Source of the DNA: Bryobacterales bacterium
GTDB taxonomy: Bacteria > Acidobacteriota > Terriglobia > Bryobacterales > Bryobacteraceae
DNA length: 64,000 nt
Assembly: GCA_009697505.1 (NCBI GenBank)
Contig: SHUD01000004.1
Location: 21,395 to 85,394, forward strand
Direction of reading: 5' to 3'
This document shows, in pieces, positions 38,035 through 45,242 of this stretch. The translations under genes were made by a program, and so were the position numbers. Each line of letters starts with the position of its first letter. The first letter of the stretch is position 1. The notes under the pieces were generated by a model. The model was not told where the DNA came from and did not search any database. It worked only from the letters and a program-made list of their open reading frames with translations.

Positions 38035-38122
38035 GCCCGCGGATAAACGCTGATGAACGCGGATAGGAGCGCGCCAACTCGCGGATTGTTGTATCGGCGT
38101 CCATTTGCGTCCATCCGCGGGC
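38035..38122. repeat. 88-bp palindromic repeat unit (REP-like)
   Basis: GCCCGCGGAT at 38035-38044 is complemented exactly by ATCCGCGGGC at 38113-38122, and the next 20 bases on each side match at about 14 positions. The left arm includes the repeating words AACGCTGATGAACGCGGAT. This is the form of interspersed palindromic repeats in many genomes; copies elsewhere cannot be checked here. Confidence 0.6.
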
Positions 38123-38201
38123 CTATTTTTGGATGCGGTTTCCCGTCCCCCAGTCGTTGGCACACGATTCCAAGTGCGAGCAAGCAGTGGGCACGTTCTG
38201 C

Positions 38202-38207
38202 TATACT
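38202..38207 (+). promoter_or_regulatory. Putative -10 of the his operon leader
   Basis: TATACT is eight bases before the ATG of the leader peptide. No Shine-Dalgarno sequence is seen, so a leaderless transcript is likely if this is the -10. Confidence 0.45.
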
Positions 38208-38215
38208 CGAACTTC

Positions 38216-38293
38216 ATGTTCGTCGTCAGGCATCGTCATCACGGACCCCATCACCACCACGGGCATCCCATGCCGCGACGGGCTCATTACTAA
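38216..38293 (+). CDS. his operon histidine-rich leader peptide
   Basis: Too short for the ORF track as such. A 25-residue peptide beginning MFVVRHRHHG and rich in His (nine of 25 codons, four of them consecutive) ends in TAA at 38293. Low charged tRNA-His would stall the ribosome here. It lies 71 bases before hisI, with a terminator between. Confidence 0.85.
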   Translation: MFVVRHRHHGPHHHHGHPMPRRAHY

Positions 38294-38352
38294 CACAAAC
38301 CGATTTTCGTTTTTAGAGAGCCCGCCGATTTCCCCTGGCGGGCTTTCTTTTT
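38279..38352 (+). promoter_or_regulatory. his attenuator: antiterminator/terminator switch
   Basis: Terminator: AGCCCGCC (38319-38326) pairs with GGCGGGCT (38337-38344), then TTTCTTTTT. Antiterminator: CGGGCTC (38279-38285), near the end of the leader peptide, pairs with GAGCCCG (38318-38324), the first terminator arm. A ribosome reaching the TAA would cover CGGGCTC and let the terminator form; stalling at His codons would free it. A small GGCAT/ATGCC hairpin (38262-38274) may pause polymerase. Confidence 0.8.
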
Positions 38353-38364
38353 GGGTAGACAAAT

Positions 38365-38745
38365 ATGCAACTCGATTTCACAAAACTCGATGGACTGCTG
38401 CCGGCGGTGATCCAGGATCACCAGACCGGCCGCGTCCTGATGGTCGGCTTCATGAACGAAGAGGCCTTCCGCAAGACAGTGGAGACCGGCTTCGCCACCT
38501 TCTATAGCCGCTCGCGCAACAAGCTGTGGCTCAAGGGCGAGAGCTCCGGCCATCGCCTGGTCGTCAAGGAAATCTCGACCGACTGCGATGTGGATACGGT
38601 TCTGGTCAAGGTCGAAGCCCTGGGGCCGGGCGTGTGCCACGAAGGCTATCAGAGTTGCTTTTTCCGGCGCCTGGAAGACGGCGAGTGGAAAATCGGCGAA
38701 GAGCGCACCTACGATCCGAATGCGGTCTATGGGAACCAGGGGTGA
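38365..38745 (+). CDS. hisI: Phosphoribosyl-AMP cyclohydrolase
   Basis: Opens the purine ring of phosphoribosyl-AMP. The 126-residue monofunctional HisI has the metal motif STDCDVDT and the CHEGYQSCFFR sequence. No HisE (phosphoribosyl-ATP pyrophosphatase) domain is fused and no separate hisE is in the window, so that step must be encoded elsewhere. First structural gene after the attenuator. Confidence 0.97.
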   Translation: MQLDFTKLDGLLPAVIQDHQTGRVLMVGFMNEEAFRKTVETGFATFYSRSRNKLWLKGESSGHRLVVKEISTDCDVDTVLVKVEALGPGVCHEGYQSCFFRRLEDGEWKIGEERTYDPNAVYGNQG

Positions 38746-38757
38746 TCGAGAAAAGCC

Positions 38758-39627
38758 ATGAAACTAAAACTGGGAATTCCGAAAGGGAGCCTCGAAAACG
38801 CCACGGTGGACCTGTTCCGCCGCGCCGGGTTCCAGATCTCCACCAGCAGCCGCTCCTACTTTCCGGCGATCGACGATCCGGAAATCGAGTGCATGCTGAT
38901 CCGCGCGCAGGAGATGGCGCGCTACGTGGAAGACGGCGTGCTCGACGCGGGCCTCACCGGCCGCGATTGGGTGGAAGAGAACGAGGCCAAGGTTGAGAAC
39001 GTCGCCGATCTCATCTACGCCAAGCAGAGCTTCGGCAAAGTGCGCTGGGTGTTGGCCGTCCCGGAAGGTTCACCGTTCCAATCGGTGAAGGATCTGGAAG
39101 GCAAGATCATTGCCACCGAACTGGTGGCCGCGACCAAGCGTTATCTGCAGCGCAACGGTGTCAACGCCAAAGTCGAATTCAGTTGGGGCGCGACCGAGGT
39201 CAAGCCACCGGAACTGGCCGACGCCATCGTCGAAGTGACGGAGACGGGCTCTTCGCTACGTGCTAACAAACTGCGCATCATCGAAACGGTGCTCGAATCG
39301 AACACGCAGTTGATCGCCAATACGAAATCCTGGCAGGATCCGGACAAGCGCAAGAAACTCGAAGACATTAAGATGCTGCTGGATGGCGCGATCGCCGCGC
39401 TCGGCAAAGTCGGGCTGATGCTCAACGTGGAGAAGTGCAATCTCGACGCCGTGCTGAGCGTGCTGCCCGCGCTCAAGCGCCCGACCATTTCGACGCTCAG
39501 CGAAGACGGGTGGCTGGCGGTCAACACAATCCTCGAAGAATTCACGGTGCGCACAATCATTCCGCGTTTGAAAAGCGCCGGCGCGCAGGGGATCGTCGAA
39601 TATCCGCTCAACAAAATCATAATGTGA
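38758..39627 (+). CDS. hisG: ATP phosphoribosyltransferase, long form
   Basis: Committed step of histidine synthesis. 289 residues with [22 protein letters not shown], and [10 protein letters not shown] and [14 protein letters not shown] of the catalytic part, plus a C-terminal regulatory ACT-like domain (about 210-289) that normally senses histidine. Because this domain is present, no hisZ is needed. A GAGAAAAGCC sequence precedes the ATG. Confidence 0.97.
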
Positions 39628-39628
39628 T

Positions 39629-39678
39629 GTGCATAAAGAGAAGTGCATAAAGCAAAGCAAGAGAAGTGCATAAAGCAA
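39629..39678. repeat. Direct repeats in the hisG-hisD junction
   Basis: GTGCATAAAG occurs three times (39629, 39643, 39666). The last two belong to a longer copy AGAGAAGTGCATAAAGCAA repeated 23 bases apart, ending at the hisD ATG. Could be a slippage product or site affecting hisD translation. Confidence 0.8.
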
Positions 39679-40901
39679 TGATCCGCATTCTCACAGATAA
39701 AGATGCGCCCACGCTTATCCGGCGTAAAGCCGTGCGCCTGGAAGAGGCCGAGCGCATCGTGGCTCCGATTCTGGCCGCTGTCCGCGAGCGCGGCGACGCG
39801 GCTCTGCTCGAATACGCGCGCAAGTTCGACGGCTTCGATGGGGCGAGCGTCCGCATGGAGGTCAGTGGATCGCTGGAGCCGGCCTTTGAGCGTGCCGTCG
39901 CGGTCGCGGCAAACAACATTCGCCAGTACGCCGAGACCCAATTGCCGCCGGAATGGTTCACTGACTATCCCGATGGCCGCAGGCTGGGCCAGATCGTGCG
40001 GCCTCTCGATGCCATGGGCGCGTACGTTCCGGCGGGGCGTTATCCGTTGCCTTCGACGCTGCTGATGACGGTGATCCCGGCGCAAGTGGCCGGCGTCCGA
40101 ACGATCTGCGTGGCATGTCCGAATCCGAGTCGGGAAATCTTGGGTATCGCGCAGTGGCTTGGACTGCCGCATCTCTACCGCATGGGTGGGGCGCAAGCGA
40201 TTGCGGCTTTGGCGTATGGAACCGAGACCGTGCCCAAGGTGGATCGCATCGTGGGGCCGGGGAACATCTACGTCGCCGCGGCCAAGAAGTTGATTGCCGG
40301 AGAAACGGGGATCGACTTCGTTGCGGGACCCACGGAGATCGTGATCATTGCCGCCGATGGCGACCCGCGCTGGATCGCGGCGGATCTGCTGGCGCAGGCC
40401 GAGCATGACGTGGACGCATCGGCGATCTTGCTGACTACGTCGAAGTCGCTGGCCGAAGCTGTCGCCAAAGAGGTGGAAGTGCAACTCGCAACGCTGCTGA
40501 CCGCTGCTGTCGCGCGGCCGTCGATTGAGAACAACGGCGCGATCGTCGTTCTCGAGACGCTGGAACAGGCCATGGAGATCTCGAACGCTCTAGCGCCGGA
40601 GCACTTGGCGCTGCATGACGAAACCCTGCTCGAGAAAGTGCGGCATGCGGGAGCGGTGTTCGTCGGCGCGTCGAGTCCCGAATCAGCAGGCGATTATGCC
40701 TCCGGCCCTAATCACGTTCTGCCCACCTCGGGAGCCGCCCGGTTGCGCGGAGGCCTGTCCGCCGCGGATTTCGTCAAGGTCATCGCCGTGCAGCAATTGA
40801 GCCCGGAGGGGCTCGCGAAACTCACGCCGGCAATTACGGCGCTGGCGCGCGCCGAAGGCTTAGAGGCACACGCCCGCTCGGCGGAGGTACGCGGTGAATA
40901 G
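39678..40901 (+). CDS. hisD: Histidinol dehydrogenase
   Basis: Two-step NAD-linked oxidation of histidinol to histidine. ATG at 39678 begins MIRILTDKDAPTLIRRKAV; a GTG at 39666 lies inside the repeat and is less likely. The 407-residue enzyme has GPGNIYVAAAKKLI, the QAEHD zinc ligands and the ALAPEHLALH Glu-His pair. It overlaps hisC by eight bases. Confidence 0.97.
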   Translation: MIRILTDKDAPTLIRRKAVRLEEAERIVAPILAAVRERGDAALLEYARKFDGFDGASVRMEVSGSLEPAFERAVAVAANNIRQYAETQLPPEWFTDYPDGRRLGQIVRPLDAMGAYVPAGRYPLPSTLLMTVIPAQVAGVRTICVACPNPSREILGIAQWLGLPHLYRMGGAQAIAALAYGTETVPKVDRIVGPGNIYVAAAKKLIAGETGIDFVAGPTEIVIIAADGDPRWIAADLLAQAEHDVDASAILLTTSKSLAEAVAKEVEVQLATLLTAAVARPSIENNGAIVVLETLEQAMEISNALAPEHLALHDETLLEKVRHAGAVFVGASSPESAGDYASGPNHVLPTSGAARLRGGLSAADFVKVIAVQQLSPEGLAKLTPAITALARAEGLEAHARSAEVRGE

Positions 40902-41955
40902 TCCACTGAAGCCGCGCGCGGCGGTGGAACGCATGGCCCCGTATCATCCGCCCACCGGTGGACGTGCGGGCAAGCTGCGTCTGGACTTCAACGAGAACAC
41001 AGTCGGCTGCTCGCCCAAAGTGATCGCGTATTTGAAAGAAAAACTGACGGCCGACGCGCTCACGGTGTATCCCGAGTACGTCGACGCCATGCGCGAGCTA
41101 GCGGCGTTCTTCGCGGTGGCTCCGGGCGAGTTGCTGCTGTCCAATGGCACCGACGAAGCGATTCAGGTGTTGATCAACACGTTTATTGAAGACGGCGCGG
41201 ATGTCTTGCTGCTCAAACCGTCGTATGCGATGTATCGCTTCTATGCGGAACTCGCCGGAGCCAGCGTTCGCGAGATCGGCTATCTGCCCGAGGATCTGGC
41301 GTTCCCGCTCGAAGAATTTCTCGCTGTGATCCGGCCCGAGACGCGCGCGATCTTGATTGCCAATCCCAACAATCCGACGGGGACTGGCATTCCGGTGGAC
41401 GGCGTCCGCCGGATTTTGGATGCTGCACCGCATGCCGCCGTCCTCATCGATGAAGCGTACTTCGAATTTTACGGCGTGACCGCGCTGCCTCTGCTGCGCC
41501 TGTATCCGAATCTCTTCGTCAGCCGGACATTTTCCAAGGTTTACGGCATGGCCGCGATGCGCTGCGGTTGCCTGTTTTCAAACGTGGCGAACGTACGCTG
41601 GATGCACAAGGCCCAGTCGCCCTACAGCGTGAACATGCTGGCCGCAATGGCCGCGCGCGCCGCCGTGCAGGACACGGAATACGTTGCGAATTACGTGAAA
41701 GAGGTCCTGGCCGCGCGGGAGTTGGTATATCAGGGACTCGAAAAACTGGGCATCCAGTTCTATCGCAGCCAGGCAAACTTCGTGTTGTTTCGCGCCGGGG
41801 AGCGTGCGATTCCCATTCGCGACGCTCTGCGCGAACGCGGCGTTCTGATTCGCGACCGCAGCTACGAAATCCCCGGCTGTGTCCGTGTGACCATCGGCAA
41901 CCGGACGCAGATCGAGCGCTTCCTCGCTGAACTGGAGGCGCTGTGGACACGGTAA
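40894..41955 (+). CDS. hisC: Histidinol-phosphate aminotransferase
   Basis: PLP-dependent transaminase, 353 residues. LDFNENTVGCSP, the ILIANPNNPTGTGI strand, and the PLP Lys motif VSRTFSKVYGMAAMRCGC are intact. GTG start inside hisD. Class I/II aminotransferase; the his context fixes its function. It overlaps the following HAD gene by 13 bases. Confidence 0.96.
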   Translation: MNSPLKPRAAVERMAPYHPPTGGRAGKLRLDFNENTVGCSPKVIAYLKEKLTADALTVYPEYVDAMRELAAFFAVAPGELLLSNGTDEAIQVLINTFIEDGADVLLLKPSYAMYRFYAELAGASVREIGYLPEDLAFPLEEFLAVIRPETRAILIANPNNPTGTGIPVDGVRRILDAAPHAAVLIDEAYFEFYGVTALPLLRLYPNLFVSRTFSKVYGMAAMRCGCLFSNVANVRWMHKAQSPYSVNMLAAMAARAAVQDTEYVANYVKEVLAARELVYQGLEKLGIQFYRSQANFVLFRAGERAIPIRDALRERGVLIRDRSYEIPGCVRVTIGNRTQIERFLAELEALWTR

Positions 41956-42614
41956 TCGTTTTCGACATGGATGGCGTTCTGGTGGAGGTAACCGAGTCCT
42001 ACCGCGAAGCCATTGTGCAGACCGTGAAGTTTTTCACCGGCACGACGATCGGGCGCGACACCATTCAGGACTACAAGAATCAGGGCGGCTGGAACAATGA
42101 CTGGACCTTGTCGCAGAAGATCGCGGCGGATCTGGGCACGCAGATTGACTACGACACCATCGTCGAGAAATTCAACGAGTCCTTTCTCGGCGAAGACGGC
42201 AACGGCTTGATCCAGCGCGAGAGCTGGTTTCCGCAAAATGGTTTACTGGAAAGGCTCGGCCAGTGCTATGAGCTGTCGATTTTCACGGGCCGCCTGCGCT
42301 ATGAAGCCGACATCACGCTGCGGCGTTTTGCCTCTGGCGTTGAGTTTGACCCGATGGTCTGTGCCGATGACGTGACCGCGGCCAAGCCCGCGCCCGAAGG
42401 ACTGCTCGCGATTCAACAGAAGAGGCCGGGCAAGAAGCTGTGGTACGTCGGCGATACCGTGGACGACGCGCGCTGCGCCCGCGCCGCAGGAGTGCCTTTC
42501 ATTGGCATCGCGGCCCACACGCACACAAAACGCGGCGAACTGATTGGATTGTTTCAACGCGAGAACGCCGTCGCGATTCTGGAAAACATCAACGAGATTG
42601 AGAGTGCCCTATGA
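41943..42614 (+). CDS. HAD-family phosphatase, probable histidinol-phosphatase
   Basis: 223 residues, start GTG. Motif [15 protein letters not shown], motif II SIFTGRL and motif [13 protein letters not shown] are intact, so it should be a phosphatase. In the operon, hisB is monofunctional (dehydratase only) and no PHP-type HisK is present, so this HAD is the best candidate for histidinol-phosphate dephosphorylation. That role is inferred from gene order and a missing step. It overlaps hisB by four bases (ATGA). Confidence 0.75.
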
Positions 42615-43204
42615 AAATCCGCAAGGCTTCGGTCCACCGTAATACCAAAGAGACCCAGATCCGCGGCAGCCTGGTCATCGATGGCAAGGGCACCTATCAG
42701 ATCTCGACCGGCATCCGGTTCTTCGATCACATGCTGGAGTTGTTCGCCAAGCACGGCGGCTTCGACCTGAAGCTCGCAGTGAAGGGCGATCTGGATGTCG
42801 ATCAACACCACACCGTGGAAGATGCCGGCATCGCGCTGGGGCAGTTGTTCGCGCAGGCGCTCGGCGACCGCAAGGGCATCAATCGCGCCGGCTACTTTGT
42901 CCTGCCCATGGATGAGACGCTCGCCGTCGTGGCCGTGGATCTCGGCGGCCGGCCGGCGCTGGTATACAAGGACGGCGTCCGCGTGCGGCTGGTGGGCGAC
43001 CTGCAAACGGAATTAGTCGAGGACTTCTTCGGCGGGTTCGTCAATCATGCGGGGGCCAATCTGCACGCGAAGATTCTCTACGGCCGGTCGAGCCATCACA
43101 AGATCGAAGCCATCTTCAAGTGCTTTGCGCGGGCCATGCGCTACGCCTGCTCCACCGACGAGCGGCTGAAAGACCAGTTGCCGTCGACCAAAGGGTTGTT
43201 GTGA
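42611..43204 (+). CDS. hisB: Imidazoleglycerol-phosphate dehydratase
   Basis: 197 residues, monofunctional: no N-terminal phosphatase. The two manganese sites are visible as FFDHMLELF and [13 protein letters not shown], with [28 protein letters not shown] at the C-terminal half. Typical length. The TGA overlaps the GTG of hisH. Confidence 0.97.
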
Positions 43205-43794
43205 TATCCATTTTCGATTACGGCGCCGGCAATCTTCGCTCGGTCGAAAACACGCTGGGCGCGATCGGCGCGGAATACAAACTGATCCGCGACGCCGCGA
43301 GCATCCGCGGCGCGACGAAGCTCATCCTGCCCGGTGTCGGGCATTTTGGCCAGATGATGCGGGCTCTCGATGAGATGAAGGTACGCGAGGCTCTGATCGA
43401 GACGATTCAATCCGGCGTCCCGTTCCTGGGCATCTGCCTCGGCATGCAAGCTCTGTTCACCAGCAGCGAAGAAGCTCCGGAGGAACGCGGCTTCGGGATT
43501 TACGAAGGACAGGTCAAGCGCTTTCAGGGCGACATGCGCATCCCGCACATGGGTTGGAACAATTTAGCGCCGCTGCGGGAATCGAAACTGCTGCGCGGGA
43601 CCGGCGATAAACCGTACGTTTACTTCGCGCACAGTTATTATGCGCCGGTGGTTGCCGCGACGGCGGCGGTGTGCGAGTACTCGCTTCCGTATACGGCGGT
43701 GCTGGAGCAAGGCAATGTCAGCGGCGTTCAGTTCCATCCCGAGAAATCCGGCGATCTCGGATTGATGATCGTGCGCAATTTTGTGGAGTCCTGA
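43201..43794 (+). CDS. hisH: Imidazole glycerol-phosphate synthase, glutaminase subunit
   Basis: Gives ammonia to HisF. The ORF track starts at 43120 inside hisB, but the GTG at 43201 begins the conserved [18 protein letters not shown]; 197 residues result. Cys nucleophile in [12 protein letters not shown], and [14 protein letters not shown] supplies the catalytic His-Glu. Overlaps the hisB stop (GTGA). Confidence 0.96.
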
Positions 43795-43797
43795 GAC

Positions 43798-44556
43798 GTG
43801 TTAGCAAAGCGCATTATCCCTTGTCTTGATGTCACCGGCGGCCGCGTGGTCAAGGGCGTCAACTTCGTGAACCTGCGTGACGCCGGCGATCCCGTGGAGC
43901 TCGCCGCGCGCTACAACGAGCAGGGCGCCGACGAACTGGTGTTCCTCGACATCACGGCGTCGAGCGACGACCGCGACACCATGGTGGACGTAGTCGCGGG
44001 CACGGCTCGCGAGGTTTTCATCCCACTCACTGTCGGCGGCGGCATTCGTTCGGTCGACGATGCCCGCCGCATCCTGCATGCCGGAGCCGATAAGGTCAGC
44101 GTCAATACCGCCGCCGTCCGCAATCCGGATCTGATCACGGCGTTGAGCGAAGAATTCGGGGCACAGGCAGTGGTGCTCGCCATCGACGCGAGGCGCAGGC
44201 CAGACGGGGGTTGGAACGTTTACACCAAGGGCGGCCGCCACGACGAGGGCATCGACGCGGTCCAGTGGGCCGCGCGCGGAGAGCAACTCGGGGCGGGGGA
44301 AATTCTGCTCACGTCCATGGATACCGACGGCGTCCAGACCGGTTTCGATTGCCCGCTCACGACTGCCGTTCGCAATGCCACGCACATTCCGGTGATTGCG
44401 TCCGGCGGCGCGGGGAAGCCGGAAGATTTTTTCGAAGTGCTGGAGAACGCCGGGGCCGACGCGGCTCTCGCGGCATCCATCTTTCATTACGGGACATATA
44501 CAGTGGGCGATCTGAAGAAGTTTTTGAGTGCGCGTGGGGTTGAAGTAAGACCATGA
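43798..44556 (+). CDS. hisF: Imidazole glycerol-phosphate synthase, cyclase subunit
   Basis: TIM-barrel cyclase, 252 residues, GTG start three bases after hisH. N-terminal [19 protein letters not shown] with the catalytic Asp, and the two phosphate loops [11 protein letters not shown] and [11 protein letters not shown]. Overlaps hisA by four bases. Confidence 0.97.
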
Positions 44557-45242
44557 TTCTTCCGTGCATCGATTTGATGGACGGCAAGGTTGTCCAGTTA
44601 GTCCAGGGCCGCGATAAGGCGCTGGAAGGCGACGCGCCGCTCGAGATGCTGCGCAAGTTTTCCGCGTTCCCGGAAATCCAGGTGATCGATCTCGACGCGG
44701 CGCTGGGGAAGGGTGAAAATTCCGCGCTGGTCGAACTGCTCGCCTCGCGCGCGAAATGCCGCGTGGGTGGAGGGGTCCGCACGCCGGAACGCGCCCGTCG
44801 TCTGATCGAGCAAGGGGCCCATCGTGTTGTGGTTGGAACCGCTGCGTTCACGCCGGTTATCGAGGACATCGCGGCGGCTGTGGGTCCCGAGCGCATCATT
44901 ATCGCGCTCGATTCCAAGCACGGCAAGATCGTCGTCAAGGGCTGGCAAGAGGCGACCGATTTCACCGCCGAAGAAGTCATCCAGCGCCTGGAACCGTTTT
45001 GCGGCGGATTCCTGTGTACTTACGTGGATAAAGAGGGAATGCTGCAGGGGACGGATCTCGACTGGTTCCGCCGGCTACGCGGGGCGACCGGGCACGAGAT
45101 CACGGCGGCGGGTGGGATTACGACGCTGGACGACGTCCGCGCGCTACTGGAGATGAACGTGCACGCGGCACTGGGGATGGCGATCTACACGGGCCGCTTG
45201 GACCTCGCCGAACTCGCGGCGATGTCCGAAGCAGCCCGTTGA
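44553..45242 (+). CDS. hisA: ProFAR isomerase (HisA)
   Basis: TIM-barrel isomerase, 229 residues. [18 protein letters not shown] carries Asp of the first strand, and [17 protein letters not shown] the second Asp. The phosphate loops are [10 protein letters not shown] and [11 protein letters not shown]. Slightly short against the usual 240 residues. Last gene of the his operon; the next gene is convergent. Confidence 0.94.

Follow-up and report, generated by a model that had tools for sequence, protein, structure and literature searches.

A putative leaderless transcription attenuator with a His-rich leader peptide upstream of hisI in a Bryobacterales bacterium and its acidobacterial relatives

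The his operon of this soil-dwelling Bryobacterales bacterium is preceded by a short ORF rich in His codons, which raises the question of whether the operon is controlled by attenuation and, if so, how a ribosome would come to engage with the leader. In the window (the whole 64-kb stretch of DNA that was analysed), the leader ORF occupies positions 38216..38293 of the forward strand and encodes the 25-codon peptide MFVVRHRHHGPHHHHGHPMPRRAHY, followed by a stop codon. It is thus a short ORF enriched in codons for the amino acid of its own operon, with nine of its 25 codons being His, eight of which (codons 6, 8, 9, 12-15 and 17, read directly from the sequence at 38231..38266, +) would be regulatory. 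Twelve nucleotides separate the end of a terminator and its U-rich tail (at 38352) from the start of hisI (phosphoribosyl-AMP cyclohydrolase, 38365..38745, +; NF000768, 154 bits against a cut-off of 126), the first gene under the predicted control. The remaining genes of the operon, hisG, hisD, hisC, a HAD hydrolase gene, hisB, hisH, hisF and hisA, follow on the same strand (38758..45242), giving the gene order hisI-G-D-C-HAD-B-H-F-A. An imperfect inverted repeat of the type CGCGGATAAACGCTGATGAACGCGGAT was also identified between an EVE-domain gene and the his promoter, with copies at 38038-38064 (+) and 38093-38119 (-).

The RNA between the start codon and hisI can be divided into four segments, all on the forward strand. 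Segment 1 (38218..38233) lies in the 5' part of the ORF and forms one strand of the 1:2 protector hairpin, an assignment resting on the predicted fold together with the synonymous-codon and cognate-partner tests described below. Segment 2 (38270..38289) spans the final codons of the ORF (...PRRAH here, often ...RRA in the family), mimics the 3' arm of the terminator and is able to pair alternatively with segment 1 or, as the 5' strand of the antiterminator, with segment 3. Its core CGGGCTC (38279-38285) is complementary to GAGCCCG (38318-38324) in segment 3 (38315..38327), which serves both as the antiterminator 3' strand and as the terminator 5' arm, and in which GCCCGCC is nearly invariant among 63 aligned leaders. 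Segment 4 with its U-rich tail (38336..38352) supplies the 3' arm of the terminator, the hairpin of which has arms at 38315-38327 and 38336-38348; a terminator hairpin is present in every one of the 96 non-redundant leaders of the Bryobacterales type. The earlier note on this DNA had described a 25-codon peptide with nine His codons, a terminator and a CGGGCTC/GAGCCCG antiterminator just before hisI, all of which are confirmed in the sequence.

In silico folding shows that the 159-nt region has a predicted energy of -51.6 kcal/mol, with a z-score of -3.8 against dinucleotide shuffles. The 1:2 hairpin is predicted at -22.2 kcal/mol before segment 3 has been made and the terminator alone at -24.0 kcal/mol. 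With no ribosome in the model, 1:2 and 3:4 form in the window RNA; with a ribosome at the stop codon, the terminator is the only hairpin possible; and with a ribosome on the His run and segment 4 not yet made, the antiterminator 2:3 prevails (-17.4 kcal/mol). In the complete window RNA at equilibrium, the terminator is more stable than the antiterminator even when segment 2 is free, and antitermination must therefore be kinetic. The two hairpins of the switch are similarly stable across the family (medians of -17.2 and -19.2 kcal/mol), and when a ribosome is placed on the His run in the model, the minimum free energy fold of the free RNA contains the antiterminator in 88 of the 96 leaders, the other eight having no clear antiterminator in this simple fold model. 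The claim that the antiterminator excludes the terminator is borne out by this 2:3 versus 3:4 switch, seen on folding with and without the ribosome, and by the presence of the antiterminator in those 88 leaders.

Short ORFs are common, and a His-rich one might occur by chance. However, the leader is the sole ATG-started ORF of 10-40 amino acids with at least six His residues in the 64-kb window, and such ORFs are expected at a mean of 0.09 per random 64-kb sequence. Chance is ruled out by conservation of the leader at the same place across the phylum, and its probability is negligible. The nearest relatives of the window genome are MAGs of the Bryobacteraceae and Bryobacterales ('Candidatus Solibacter', Paludibaculum and Sulfopaludibacter). 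A His-rich leader lies 5' of hisI in 77 of 80 relatives in one set and at 35 of the 50 hisI loci of another, including nearly all of those from the window's own family; the examined genomes of genus g17 (family f3) lack it. Nearly all Bryobacteraceae examined have the His-rich leader, the antiterminator strand and the terminator before hisI. A covariance model trained on 63 leaders finds matches in 220 of the 299 genomes of the class, and all 20 of the matches sampled in other families encode leaders with at least four His residues, nearly all directly before hisI. The top matches in other classes of the phylum likewise include His leaders, these lying before hisI, hisD (L165, L178) and hisG (L177); the phylum count of 84 of 297 is an upper bound and too high, because it takes in matches, such as L176 and L187, that do not represent his leaders. 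In Bryobacterales, in other families of the class and in other classes alike, the leader thus keeps its His run, all three pairings (1:2, 2:3 and 3:4) and its place before hisI. Loss of the His run or of the pairing in related genomes had been named beforehand as evidence against an attenuator; both were found to be conserved, and the idea survived. Two further loci are worth mentioning. In L021 the -10 box is followed almost at once by the terminator and the leader ORF is gone, an apparent natural deletion variant, and CALQCC020000041.1 (L089), titled Bordetella parapertussis, holds an acidobacterial his locus and is apparently a mislabelled MAG.

The alternative pairings were also examined for signs of selection. 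When codons were shuffled synonymously, with the peptide kept and codons drawn from the usage of the family, the real leaders (n=96) paired more strongly than their shuffles, both for 1:2 (mean z -0.98, Wilcoxon p about 1e-12) and for 2:3 (mean z -0.89, p about 1e-13). Comparison of cognate with foreign partners in 63 diverse leaders gave the leader's own partner an advantage of 3.5 kcal/mol for 1:2 (p=2e-7), 1.7 kcal/mol for 2:3 (p=0.004) and 1.9 kcal/mol for 3:4 (p=5e-9), with no gain for the control pairing 1:3; the p-values of all these pairing tests are optimistic, as the sequences are related but were treated as independent. Column-wise covariation in a fixed 8-pair 1:2 helix gave a count not above that of shuffles, a result probably due to register shifts of the helix and to its nearly invariant cores. 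The register itself stands out, with 71% of cells paired compared with 37-51% after sliding, and U-A and C-G each occur 18 times at one pair of the helix. Synonymous codon choice, on the shuffle test, favours both leader helices, 1:2 and 2:3 (p about 1e-12). This has a bearing on a different reading, in which the ORF would encode a functional poly-His micropeptide, for example a metal-binding one, and the terminator would be incidental. His-rich peptides can bind metals, and the His-rich character is kept in the family. However, the residues flanking the His codons vary widely while the RNA pairings are under selection at the synonymous level, the ORF sits before his genes, and relatives carry leaders of the same layout in which aromatic codons precede DAHP synthase and Ile/Val codons precede ilvB, all of which makes a micropeptide highly improbable.

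Control of the terminator by another sensor, with the His ORF being secondary, would be a further possibility, as T-boxes govern his genes in Firmicutes and one has been proposed for Corynebacterium (PMC9413887, PMC3896937). The earlier note had pointed to a T-box as the usual alternative. This finds no support here, as searches of the window and of 13 related loci matched no T-box or other Rfam family at gathering score, RF00514 (His_leader) included, and sub-threshold Rfam matches in the leader region are at chance level. Moreover, the RNA from the start codon to the terminator consists almost wholly of the ORF and a short linker. A T-box or riboswitch at this site hardly deserves credence.

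The leader promoter is predicted to have an extended -10 element, TGCTATACT (38199..38207, +), made up of the -10 box TATACT (38202-38207) with TGC directly 5' of it; the coordinate 38202 at which the earlier note began its feature is the first base of this box. The gap from the box to the leader ATG is 8 nt, and this spacing is kept in related leaders. Of the 96 Bryobacterales-type leaders, 92 have the -10 box 8-9 nt from the start codon and 84 have the TGn extension, although this gap is partly conditioned, since for part of the set the search accepted only gaps of 6-11. An independent set, picked for His content with the gap left unconditioned, comprised 64 distinct leaders in other families and classes, and in these TANNNT was found 47 times at gaps of 8-10 and hardly at other distances. 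Across the phylum the -10 box stands 8-10 nt before the start codon, frequently in the extended form TGnTATACT, and Shine-Dalgarno (SD)-like motifs are scarce (7/64 independent and 7/96 Bryobacterales-type leaders). TA-like signals about 10-12 bp 5' of the start have been described as marking leaderless genes, a class averaging 13% of genes across three Acidobacteria genomes (PMC3160421). The his leaders have the same features, with a -10 spacing that would leave a 5' UTR of about 0-3 nt and with few SD-like motifs. From this spacing the his leader mRNA is probably leaderless, its 5' end falling at the AUG or within about 3 nt of it, which supports the earlier note's remark on a possible leaderless start. 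No sharp leaderless-start peak was seen among the long ORFs of one relative (400 kb scanned), in which start sites are uncertain. Alternatively, the attenuator could be real and the leader not leaderless, with transcription starting further upstream and TATACT not being the promoter. In line with this, no conserved -35 box was found in the 96 Bryobacterales leaders, but the fixing of a -10-like box at 8-10 nt throughout the phylum, with a near-zero background at other distances, and the paucity of SD-like motifs argue against it, and an upstream start is considered unlikely.

Taken together, the his leader is very probably a ribosome-mediated transcription attenuator on a leaderless message, with charged tRNA-His as the signal sensed, and the earlier reading of classic ribosome-mediated attenuation gains support from the conserved His run, the pairings and the place before hisI. 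In the proposed mechanism, in which the start site, stalling of the ribosome and a histidine response are inferred, RNA polymerase would start at or just 5' of the leader AUG, and the ribosome must therefore load on a leaderless message. With ample His-tRNA, the ribosome would reach the stop codon and cover segment 2, whereupon segment 3 would pair with segment 4 and transcription would stop at the U-tract before hisI. With scarce His-tRNA, it would stall in the His run, masking segment 1 and leaving segment 2 free, so that 2:3 would form before segment 4 exists, the terminator would be blocked and the his operon transcribed. Were there no translation whatever, 1:2 would pair and the terminator would form.

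The design of the his leader is not confined to the his operon. A scan of the bacterium's own genome for TGNTATACT-N8-ATG gave one exact match besides the his leader, located before a gene for DAHP synthase (L287; G000:C18:37776-37795, minus strand). The predicted leaderless peptide is aromatic-rich, MLSAASSFRFSYWYFTV followed by a stop codon, and downstream of it come the antiterminator strand GAGTGGGCT, the terminator ACCCACTCGAAAGAGTGGGTTTTTT and then the gene. By its sequence this is a second predicted attenuator of the his-leader design in the genome. In most of 30 relatives (loci from the series L304-L332), Phe, Tyr and Trp codons are mixed in a leader before DAHP synthase, together with a similar terminator, and the leader is possibly a multi-amino-acid attenuator. 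On balance, and with modest confidence, we favour a general and hitherto undescribed scheme of leaderless attenuation in the Acidobacteriota, with the message beginning at the start codon of the leader, comprising his across the phylum and DAHP synthase in the window's genus and family, where a Phe/Tyr/Trp leader would sense all three amino acids. In one DAHP synthase locus (L319) the -10 box nearly abuts the terminator and the leader ORF is missing, an apparent natural deletion variant. In the window's genus, ilvB (L261-L265, L267) is preceded by a conserved Ile/Val-rich leader ending like ...VVLIIGVGVTGPA (...IIGVGVTGPA), with a terminator GGCCACTG...CAGTGGCC and a T-tract, for which no Rfam match was found. 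These ilvB leaders are not leaderless and have a longer 5' UTR, and the short -10-to-start pattern is therefore not general, a further point against an upstream start for the his leaders. A leader MSHAGSTLIIAAIAIIPSREGA, met via the his leader model, was observed 5' of a threonine dehydratase-like gene (ilvA) in another class of the phylum (L185), while no consistent leader was found before trpE or leuA in the relatives scanned.

The Acidobacteriota thus gain a clear and widely conserved his attenuator. As the leader is apparently leaderless, a ribosome would have to engage once the 5' end of the RNA emerges, making it a useful natural case for early transcription-translation coupling, and relatives with degenerate or absent leaders offer natural tests. 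No his attenuation or leader peptide described for Acidobacteria/Acidobacteriota was found in open-licence papers. His attenuators on record belong to the Gammaproteobacteria and to three lineages of Firmicutes (PMC9413887, PMC2965389). The enteric his attenuator of Salmonella and E. coli (RF00514) resembles that of the window in its His-rich leader peptide before the his operon, its mutually exclusive antiterminator and terminator and its inferred sensing of charged tRNA-His. It differs in that the acidobacterial leader has no match to the covariance model and is apparently leaderless, that hisI is the first gene of the window operon, and that the window has a simpler arrangement of 1:2, 2:3 and 3:4 only, an extra hairpin being described for the his attenuator in PMC1183508. 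The Firmicutes his attenuators (Bacillus cereus group, Peptostreptococcaceae and others) share a His-codon leader, a terminator and an antiterminator 5' of his genes outside the Proteobacteria, but are from another phylum and are described with three to five consecutive His codons, whereas those of the window are dispersed (9/25); a leaderless layout is not noted in the portions consulted of either paper (PMC9413887, PMC2965389). A precedent for that layout is Sinorhizobium meliloti trpL (PMC7298713), where the 5' end of the attenuator RNA coincides with the AUG of the leader ORF, although that system concerns tryptophan in an alphaproteobacterium and its 5' end was reported, whereas here it is deduced from promoter spacing. 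The mechanism is a textbook one, while the lineage, the sequence and the leaderless layout are new.
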